This document shows, piece by piece, positions 21,561 through 23,955 of a DNA stretch of 64,000 nt. A program made the translations under genes and the position numbers. The notes under the pieces are model-generated. The model searched no databases, was not told where the DNA came from, and saw only the letters and a list, made by a program, of their open reading frames with translations. The stretch's first letter is position 1; each line of letters starts with the position of its first letter. The stretch is from Bacteroidota bacterium (lineage in GTDB: Bacteria; Bacteroidota; Bacteroidia; Flavobacteriales_E; Vicingaceae): assembly GCA_013112545.1 (NCBI GenBank), contig JABFGJ010000003.1, forward strand, positions 124,001 through 188,000, written 5' to 3'.

Positions 21561-22307
21561 ATGAACAAAAAACACCTTCAACATCACGAACATAAAATTC
21601 ACAACAAAGAAGGCTGGAAGGCTAAATGGGAAGATTATATAGGTGAGTTTGTTTATGGAGGTATTGATGGTAGTGTAACAACATTTGCTGTAGTAGCAGG
21701 TTCTGCGGGTGCTGGTTTAGATTCTTCAATAGTTATAATTTTAGGTTTTGCCAATTTAATTGCCGATGGCTTTGCCATGTCTGTAGGAAGTTATTTATCT
21801 AACAAATCGGAGCAGGAAAACTACGATAAACATAAAAGACTAGAATATTGGGAAGTAGATCATTTACCTGAGAAAGAACGGGAAGAGATTCGTGAAATAT
21901 ACGAAGCAAAAGGATTTGAAGGCGAATTGCTAGAGCAAGTTGTAGCTGTCATTACAGCAGATAAAGACCGTTGGGTTGATGTGATGATGAAAGAGGAATT
22001 AAATATGATGGAGTCTGAAAAATCCCCATTTGCAATGGGTGCAATGACTTTTTTTTCATTTATAATTGTTGGAATCATTCCTTTAATTGCATATATATGG
22101 GACTATTCTTCAGGTCAGAATAGTGCCAACTTGTTTAATATGAGCATAGTTTTAACTTCTTTCGCTTTTATTGGCATAGGTTGGCTAAAATCGTATGTTA
22201 CTCAAACAAAACGAATCAAGAGTATATTGGAAACGCTTTCTCTTGGAGCTGCTGCTGCAGTATTATCTTATTTTGTAGGAAATATTTTAGAGCGAATGAT
22301 CGGGTAG
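21561..22307 (+). CDS. VIT1/CCC1 family iron/manganese transporter
   Basis: A 248-residue membrane protein of the vacuolar iron transporter family. The first transmembrane pair contains GEFVYGGIDGSVTTFAVVAGSAGA, followed by NLIADGFAMSVGSYLS. A cytosolic helical domain rich in Glu (about 85-140: EREEIREIYEAKGFEGE, DVMMKEE) matches the metal-binding domain of VIT1, and three C-terminal helices complete the fold. It probably moves Fe(II) or Mn(II) out of the cytosol. The His-rich start (KHLQHHEHKIHNKEGW) may help bind metal. Its mRNA 3' region runs into the candidate antisense-oriented small RNA. Confidence 0.87.
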   Translation: MNKKHLQHHEHKIHNKEGWKAKWEDYIGEFVYGGIDGSVTTFAVVAGSAGAGLDSSIVIILGFANLIADGFAMSVGSYLSNKSEQENYDKHKRLEYWEVDHLPEKEREEIREIYEAKGFEGELLEQVVAVITADKDRWVDVMMKEELNMMESEKSPFAMGAMTFFSFIIVGIIPLIAYIWDYSSGQNSANLFNMSIVLTSFAFIGIGWLKSYVTQTKRIKSILETLSLGAAAAVLSYFVGNILERMIG

Positions 22308-22390
22308 TTTTCAAACTAGTTCGATGAATTGTTCCAAATGATCAATTTCCGAAATTTTGGTTTGGAAGATAGTCTATTAAAAATAAGCAC

Positions 22391-22430
22391 AAAAAAAAGT
22401 CCGTCGCGCCTCGGGAGAGGGCAACGGACT
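22391..22430 (-). terminator. Strong intrinsic terminator (minus strand)
   Basis: Read on the minus strand, AGTCCGTTGC pairs with GCGACGGACT (10 bp, one G-U). It encloses a small CCTC-TCCC-GAGG hairpin and is followed by U8 (22391-22398). This is the most stable hairpin in the window. Confidence 0.85.
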
Positions 22431-22468
22431 CCAACCAAACCAAACCAAAATATCACCTATCTTGATCT
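22391..22468 (-). ncRNA. Candidate small RNA of about 78 nt
   Basis: On the minus strand a complete transcription unit lies between two convergent genes. A TTG-N19-TAAATTTG promoter (22502-22473) is followed by about 40 nt of single-stranded U/G-rich leader with a repeated GGUUU motif, then a strong branched hairpin ending in U8. No ORF with a credible start is contained. The sequence is much more GC-rich (22399-22430) than the surroundings. It could alternatively be the long 3' trailer of the TPR gene at 22590. The 12-base segment ATTTTGGTTTGG of the leader is also present on the plus strand at 22354-22365, forming an inverted repeat around the hairpin. No known RNA family was recognised. 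Confidence 0.45.
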
Positions 22469-22472
22469 GGGA

Positions 22473-22502
22473 CAAATTTACACACACTTTTTAATTCTGC
22501 AA
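22473..22502 (-). promoter_or_regulatory. Bacteroidota -33/-7 promoter of the candidate small RNA
   Basis: The minus strand carries TTG (22502-22500), a 19-base spacer and TAAATTTG (22480-22473), matching both elements of the Bacteroidota consensus. The predicted start is near 22468. Confidence 0.6.
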
Positions 22503-22589: not shown

Positions 22590-22907
22590 CTAATCCAGTT
22601 CTATAAGCCATAAAGCTTCTTCAAGCTCTCCTTTCGATTTGAAATCGTTTTTTTCGGTAGAAAGTTTTATACCATGAGCGTATATTTTTCTTGCCAAATC
22701 GAGTTTGTTGATTGTTTCGTATAGTTGTCCGAGCTTATAATATGCTCCTAAATAATCGGGATCTGATTCTATGAGTTTCTTAATTGTTTCAATTGCCTTT
22801 TTGGTATTGCCTGCTTTTTCGTATTCTAAGCCCAAGGCATAGGTTAAAAAACTGTCGCTTGGATCAGTCTTTAACATTTTTCTTATTTCATCAACTCTGT
22901 TCACCAT
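22590..22907 (-). CDS. Small TPR-repeat protein
   Basis: A 105-residue soluble protein made almost wholly of about three tetratricopeptide repeats. They appear as SFLTYALGLEYEKAGNTKKA, then YLGAYYKLGQLYETINKLD and LARKIYAHGIKL. TPRs mediate protein-protein contacts; no partner domain is attached. It lacks a signal peptide, so it should be cytoplasmic. It stands alone, with the candidate small RNA downstream on the same strand. Confidence 0.78.
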   Translation of the reverse strand: MVNRVDEIRKMLKTDPSDSFLTYALGLEYEKAGNTKKAIETIKKLIESDPDYLGAYYKLGQLYETINKLDLARKIYAHGIKLSTEKNDFKSKGELEEALWLIELD

Positions 22908-23049
22908 TTCTTGTTCAACTGCGAATATACGCTATTAGTTCTAATTTTAGAATGGACATAATAGATGAATGGCAGGTATAACATCTTTTTAATAATTAAA
23001 GAATTCAATTGAAGTATGGATTTTGATAAAATCGCATTGCTCATTCGAA

Positions 23050-23955
23050 TTACTCTCCCCAAGTTTCAATTTCTTTTGCTGACCATAATTGCGGGAAAAA
23101 CTTTCTTTGTTGGTATTTAGGATGTAAATATTTTTTCCATTCTGAGCCACCTGTTGCTGCTTTATTTTCTCCTTTTTTATCTAAATAATGCTGCGCTGTT
23201 TCTAAATGAACAATTGGCCACACAACATTATATAGTCGGTCTAATTCTTTAAACTTAGTTAATAATTCCTCTGAAGGTTTTTCCATACGATTGATTCTTT
23301 CTTCAATCGTATTGCCCTGAACCTTCTTAGCTAAAAGTATAAAACTTTCTAAGTATTTATCTTCAAATTGGGTTAATGTTAATGAACGTTTTCCAGTTTG
23401 ACGATTATATCCAGCATCTCGCCAATAGATGTGTTCGAAATAATCTTCTATACTCGGATTTGCTGGAAGTCGCTCTTTGCCTTTTGCATTGATTAAGTTA
23501 GATAATTGCGTGAAATAAATTTCAATTAACCTAAACTGAGCGCTTTGAAAACCACTTGCAGGGGCTAAAGTAGCTCTAAAGGTATTATAATCATCATAAT
23601 CCATTCCGTCTTTCATTACATCAAAAGAGCTAGTAAGAATTCCAGTGTAGCGGTTTATTCGATTAATCTTATTAATCAGAAAATCTTCAGTCCAAGTTTT
23701 ATTTTCGTGCATTTGCTTTACTTCGTGTAAAACCAATTTTAACATTAATTCAATCACTTGATGATACATGACAAAAATCTCTTCATCCTTATAGTTTGTT
23801 CTAGGCTTTTGCAGCGAAAGCAAAGTATCAACTTGTATATAATCCCAATAATTAATGGGTTTAGATTCTAATAAACCACTTAAATAAGTATCTGGGTTTT
23901 CGCCCAATTTCTCATATTTATCAACTATAGCTTGTATGATTTCTTCTCTTTTCAT
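23050..23955 (-). CDS. kynA: Tryptophan 2,3-dioxygenase
   Basis: A 301-residue haem enzyme that opens the indole ring of tryptophan to N-formylkynurenine, the first step of the kynurenine pathway. The catalytic-site histidine (H65 in MYHQVIELMLKL), the substrate-carboxylate arginine (R142 in SGFQSAQFRLIE), the proximal haem ligand (H250 in PIVHLETAQHYL) and the substrate loop ATGGS (about 268-272) are all present. Positions correspond to H55, R117 and H240 of the Xanthomonas enzyme. Other kynurenine genes are not in the window. It is followed upstream on the same strand by a truncated haemoglobin gene, but 119 bases separate them. Confidence 0.92.
   Translation of the reverse strand: MKREEIIQAIVDKYEKLGENPDTYLSGLLESKPINYWDYIQVDTLLSLQKPRTNYKDEEIFVMYHQVIELMLKLVLHEVKQMHENKTWTEDFLINKINRINRYTGILTSSFDVMKDGMDYDDYNTFRATLAPASGFQSAQFRLIEIYFTQLSNLINAKGKERLPANPSIEDYFEHIYWRDAGYNRQTGKRSLTLTQFEDKYLESFILLAKKVQGNTIEERINRMEKPSEELLTKFKELDRLYNVVWPIVHLETAQHYLDKKGENKAATGGSEWKKYLHPKYQQRKFFPQLWSAKEIETWGE

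Follow-up and report, generated by a model that had tools for sequence, protein, structure and literature searches.

A candidate small RNA with an invariant GU-rich block in one clade of flavobacteria

Does the gap between two convergent genes of a Vicingaceae genome encode an RNA of its own, and what might such an RNA do? The gap lies in a 64,000-nt stretch of contig JABFGJ010000003.1, here called the window, between genes for a small TPR protein and a VIT1-family transporter. Its minus strand carries, in order, a promoter string, a leader of about 37 nt, a GC-rich hairpin, and T8. This arrangement agrees with the original prediction of a small-RNA gene with promoter and terminator at 22391-22502, beginning with TTG-N19-TAAATTTG. 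On balance, the evidence leans towards a clade-specific intergenic small RNA (sRNA) of about 78 nt with its own promoter and a GU-rich candidate seed. The presence of the RNA in relatives, its fold, terminator covariation, invariance of the block, synteny, clade restriction, and a promoter-like block upstream support this reading. The coordinates of the features are collected in Table 1.

Table 1. Features of the locus and its neighbors in window coordinates
Feature	Position	Strand	Basis or remark
Predicted small RNA, ~78 nt	22391..22468	-	Fold (z -6.3) and homologues
5' hairpin	22440..22470	-	Predicted folds; sequence varies between genera
Intrinsic terminator hairpin, GGAGUCCGUUGC..GCGACGGAC	22396..22432	-	Fold; covariation in relatives
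Terminator U8 tract (T8 in DNA)	22391..22398	-	Sequence
Invariant block UUGGUUUGGUUGG, candidate seed	22431..22443	-	Identical in 11/11 genomes
Predicted -33 element TTG, Bacteroidota sigma-A type promoter	22500..22502	-	Sequence; pattern count
Predicted -7 element TAAATTTG (consensus TAnnTTTG)	22473..22480	-	Sequence; consensus from PMC9723704
Promoter region, at the place of the relatives' conserved block (TnT - AACA - N16 - TGT); AAC absent	22473..22502	-	Comparison with 10 relatives
TPR protein gene, 105 aa, upstream neighbor of the RNA in 11/11 genomes	22590..22907	-	
VIT1-family (iron/manganese type) transporter gene, convergent	21561..22307	+	Neighbor in window genome only

Homologues and predicted fold

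A blastn search of 41 genomes (the RNA's own and 40 relatives) recovered the conserved core in other genera. With up to two mismatches allowed, a 20-nt core was found in 11 of the 46 genomes of the family, representing 6 of its 16 genera; ten of these genomes had no mismatch and one had a single mismatch. The order comprises the same 46 genomes. A covariance model retrieved the same 11 of 46 genomes at 65-82 bits, and since it was built from those 11 and matches them by construction, the informative part of this result is the gap to the next best match at about 26 bits. The hairpin is thus conserved in related genomes, as the check proposed with the original prediction was to show, and the RNA is not the orphan that it had been called. 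It is restricted to one flavobacterial clade.

Beyond the family, the picture was one of weak similarity. Across 395 sampled genomes of the class, the covariance model matched 4 family members and 17 other genomes, the latter at about 27-35 bits. Sixteen of these loci were read: several are GU-rich stretches that precede unrelated terminators, and the others are plain terminators or gene sequence. Given the very many terminators in each genome, the 17 matches were regarded as chance, by judgment rather than by a calculated rate, and were not accepted as homologues. The same argument led us to drop one locus from the first blastn search (L014 in genome G029). GGTTTGG-like GU-rich stretches stand before terminators at seven loci from other families (L080, L083, L085, L087, L089, L091, and L094), probably by chance. 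The exact core occurred in 10 stretches of a named genome collection, nine of which are contigs of Bacteroidota metagenome-assembled genomes already found (seven titled Flavobacteriales, one Vicingaceae, and one Bacteroidia). An exact-core match in Calothrix has no terminator and was rejected as chance. No Rfam family reached its gathering score in the window, and the small-RNA literature searched for Vicingaceae and Flavobacteriales held no description of this RNA. As far as Rfam and those literature searches extend, it is undescribed so far.

Placing the -7 box at positions -12 to -5, after Flavobacterium psychrophilum (PMC9723704), predicts a start at A22468. The RNA would then be 78 nt long, in keeping with the length of about 78 nt proposed originally. 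The segment 22392-22470 (79 nt) folds at -39.2 kcal/mol versus a mean of -19.4 for shuffled sequences (z = -6.3), and none of 200 shuffles equaled it. Of the very stable branched hairpin with U8 that had been described, the stability and the U tract were confirmed but the branching was not: the predicted terminator is one hairpin of 16 bp, interrupted by a single bulged C and closed by the loop UCCC. A terminator hairpin with a U tract, as expected of an intergenic sRNA, is in place. Its stem is conserved as structure, with 99.1% of 110 cells paired and two-sided compensatory changes in 3 of its 10 pairs; at most 1 of 500 shuffles was as good by these measures.

The leader is rich in U and G, as had been noted, but is predicted to be mostly paired. 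It forms a 13-bp 5' hairpin in the fold from 22470 (two pairs fewer from 22468), in which CCAGAUCAAGAUA pairs with UAUUUUGGUUUGG and UUUGGUU alone stays single-stranded in the window. In a number of genomes, including that of the window, the predicted fold has the beginning of the invariant block paired with the 5' arm. Across the 11 genomes, the z score of the 5' hairpin ran from -5.2 to +0.8, with four genomes at p <=0.01, no structure in G059, and none that was significant in G014. Most of the genomes have the 5' hairpin, but since its sequence differs between genera and the range of z is wide, its conservation is only partly shown.

Promoter-like block and neighboring genes

On the minus strand of the window, TTG is followed by a 19-nt spacer and TAAATTTG. 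The pattern TTG-N19..21-TAnnTTTG was seen 4 times in the window versus 7.3 expected under a first-order Markov model. Being no rarer than chance, the string is weak evidence by itself and takes its weight from its position just upstream of the hairpin pair. A generic sigma-70 scan of the window did not have this promoter among its listed sites.

The relatives display a different arrangement. AAC-N17-GT(C/A) is found 46-56 nt upstream of the invariant block in 10 of the 11 genomes and is missing in the window; its background frequency is 76 of 3256 60-nt windows (2.3%). When six representatives were anchored on this pattern, 10 of 48 columns were invariant versus at most 3 in 20000 random placements, a count that takes in the anchor columns and includes two representatives of the same genus. 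Common motifs of ECF sigma factors have AAC at -35 and CGT at -10 (PMC3933326, citing Staron 2009), and in F. psychrophilum a CGT-box motif ascribed to ECF sigma factors precedes T9SS genes and the sRNA Rfp11 (PMC9723704). The strict pattern revealed no ECF-type regulon: it matched 20 sites (control, 18), of which 6 belong to this RNA and 14 lie elsewhere, mostly inside genes. The spacing control AAC-N19-GTC gave 13 sites versus 24. In addition, TAGATTGT is present in some relatives and agrees with the TAnnTTGY motif of PMC9723704. Since this fit exists in some relatives and the strict pattern gave no regulon, we leave the sigma factor undecided; the upstream block is conserved and promoter-like, a candidate for either sigma type. 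The promoter has apparently been rewired, with the relatives keeping AAC-N17-GT(C/A) and the window lineage having TTG and TAAATTTG, which match the sigma-A consensus.

The closeness of the RNA to the TPR gene also fits another reading, in which the RNA belongs to the TPR mRNA as a conserved element of its 3' UTR. The TPR transcript would then be terminated by the hairpin pair, there would be no separate promoter, and the GU stretch would either be a protein-binding site or be set free as a 3'-UTR-derived sRNA. We hold this to be possible, if unlikely. It is consistent with the TPR gene lying upstream in every genome that has the RNA, with 75-83 nt between its stop and the RNA in seven of them (146 nt in the window and 177, 209, and 808 nt in the others), and with the TPR gene being found in 14 of the 46 genomes (E up to 1e-10) and the RNA only within those 14. 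However, the promoter-like block directly upstream of the RNA is conserved in 10 of 11 genomes, and a predicted sigma-A type promoter stands in the window. In genome G007, the upstream block has remained with the RNA despite the gap of 808 nt, which favors an independent unit, and in G018 a terminator-like hairpin lies between the TPR gene and the RNA. Furthermore, three g10 genomes have the TPR gene with no such RNA behind it. In the TPR tree, these three are on the other side of a fully supported branch (100/100) from the 11 RNA-bearing genomes. A single gain in the clade is the simplest history.

Several other features of the neighborhood were observed. At the G007 locus (L036), there are about 600 nt more between the TPR stop and the RNA than in G018 of the same genus, and no open reading frame of at least 60 aa is listed between the TPR gene and the RNA. 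In the loci compared, which span 3 kb or, in nine cases, 8 kb, MiaA was upstream in 10 of 11 genomes and absent there in the window, where the miaA-TPR pair of the 10 relatives is broken (22590-23955). In the same loci, the VIT1 gene and a tryptophan dioxygenase-like gene were neighbors in the window only (1 of 11). The latter, upstream of the window's TPR gene, resembles tryptophan 2,3-dioxygenase by a partial match to a Pfam model.

The invariant block and its possible targets

Thirteen nucleotides, TTGGTTTGGTTGG, are identical in all 11 genomes. Among seven representatives, mean identity was 0.96 in the 13-nt interval at +4 of the block and 0.25-0.44 in most surrounding intervals, and the 5' arm, the terminator loop, and the flanks have diverged to background identity. 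Inspection of the 11 sequences revealed no conserved peptide over the block; start codons and frames differ between genomes, and the shifting frames rule out a coding leader peptide. Since the 13 nt are unchanged while loops and arms drift, a base-pairing seed is the most economical reading. In the sRNA model that we favor, the RNA would be transcribed as a separate molecule from its own promoter just behind the small TPR gene and ended by the intrinsic terminator, with relatives similar in size. The variable 5' hairpin and the conserved terminator stem would flank the GU-rich UUGGUUUGGUUGG, which could pair in trans with CA-rich mRNA segments, and this pairing may change the translation or stability of the targets.

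With up to one mismatch, CCAACCAAACCAA had 188 sites in the 11 genomes versus 107 for the reversed control. Eighty sites were classified: 41 run antisense to genes and 26 fall within genes in the sense orientation, leaving 12 that are intergenic and 1 near a start. These 80 comprise all sites in G000, G002, G021, and G011 except the RNA's own, together with 11 of 14 in G014, so that five of the 11 genomes were covered; 17 further loci, partly overlapping the 80, were examined. Additional exact copies of the seed's complement were for the most part antisense to genes. Given the antisense share of the classified sites, the excess stems largely from sites whose GU strand is the coding one. The near-exact complement sites (80 of 188 classified, plus the 17 partly overlapping loci) yielded no conserved target, and a near-exact search would miss targets that a short seed binds with G-U pairs.

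CA-rich, CCAACCAAACCAA-like stretches were observed directly upstream of unrelated intrinsic terminators, around position 801, at loci L180 and L196 (G021) and L199 and L200 (G011). They are exact or near-exact complements of the GU block and come from two g12 genomes of one genus. None of the classified sites from G000, G002, or G014 had such a stretch before another terminator, and we take the four loci as no more than a lead.

In enterobacteria, GcvB carries a G/U-rich single-stranded linker between hairpins, which is used for mRNA pairing. The RNA described here likewise has a G/U-rich linker between hairpins, and no sequence relation is claimed. A more far-reaching proposal is that it acts as a GcvB-like global sRNA, with the GU-rich seed beside the terminator pairing with CA-rich stretches in many mRNAs, including some that lie immediately before other genes' terminators. 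An envelope-stress (ECF) sigma factor would switch it on in most of the clade, and in the window lineage it would have been rewired to the housekeeping one. We consider this distinctly unlikely.

That the hairpin is no more than an inherited terminator, lacking any regulatory role, seems quite improbable. A terminator is expected behind an operon and the genomes are related, but 13 nt have stayed unchanged where the loop, the 5' arm, and the flanks have not, and the element is absent from the g10 genomes that have the TPR gene. It is highly improbable that the GU-rich stretch GGUUUGGUUUGGUUGG folds into a two-layer RNA G-quadruplex with a role in tuning termination or in protein binding. Four GG runs, separated by loops of 2-3 nt, are present in 6 of the 11 sequences, but the five g12 genomes have no more than three. 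The U loops, moreover, have changed as little as the G runs, and a quadruplex would not require this.

We give next to no credence to the antisense regulation of the VIT1 3' trailer put forward in the original prediction, and the iron link that came with it is unsupported, since the VIT1 neighbor and the inverted repeat are unique to the window and identical segments cannot pair. If a VIT1 transcript read on beyond 22391, it would be complementary to the RNA, and the 12-nt segment ATTTTGGTTTGG does recur on the plus strand at 22354-22365, as claimed; its letters are the same in the RNA leader, however, so that the two RNAs share this segment and are not complementary in it. The 12-nt inverted repeat would at most let a read-through of either strand fold back on itself, and it is missing from the other 10 genomes, with a longest match there of 5-7 nt.

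Comparison with known systems

In the literature consulted, base-pairing sRNAs of this phylum are few, and most are from Bacteroides. Bacteroides and its relatives are without such usual RNA chaperones as Hfq (PMC12119571). A 13-nt candidate seed in uncultured flavobacteria offers a defined sequence to seek in metatranscriptomes, and the candidate RNA may serve as a test case for a seed that is kept while its promoter is rewired.

Rfp11 and Rfp18 of F. psychrophilum (PMC9723704) are likewise flavobacterial and strongly folded, a comparison made by description only; Rfp11 has a putative ECF-sigma promoter. MasB (BTnc201, RF04177) of Bacteroides thetaiotaomicron is likewise intergenic, about 100 nt long, and ends in a terminator, and it acts on the mRNA of a TPR protein (PMC10994844). 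The RNA described here differs in that the TPR start is not favored for pairing by its linker in any of the 11 genomes, ranking 12 to 137 of 298 windows. The RF04177 model scored 22.9 bits in the window versus a gathering score of 105 and, with E values up to 3 allowed, was unlisted in every one of the 11 homologous loci.

The sRNAs FopS and GibS of Bacteroides (PMC11697453) are, like the candidate RNA, intergenic RNAs of Bacteroidota; their conserved single-stranded seed precedes an intrinsic terminator, as the candidate seed does here. FopS forms a family of 14 copies and carries the seed at the 5' end, whereas the candidate RNA is single-copy and has a 5' hairpin; the promoter of FopS is of the sigma-A type, as predicted in the window (PMC11697453).
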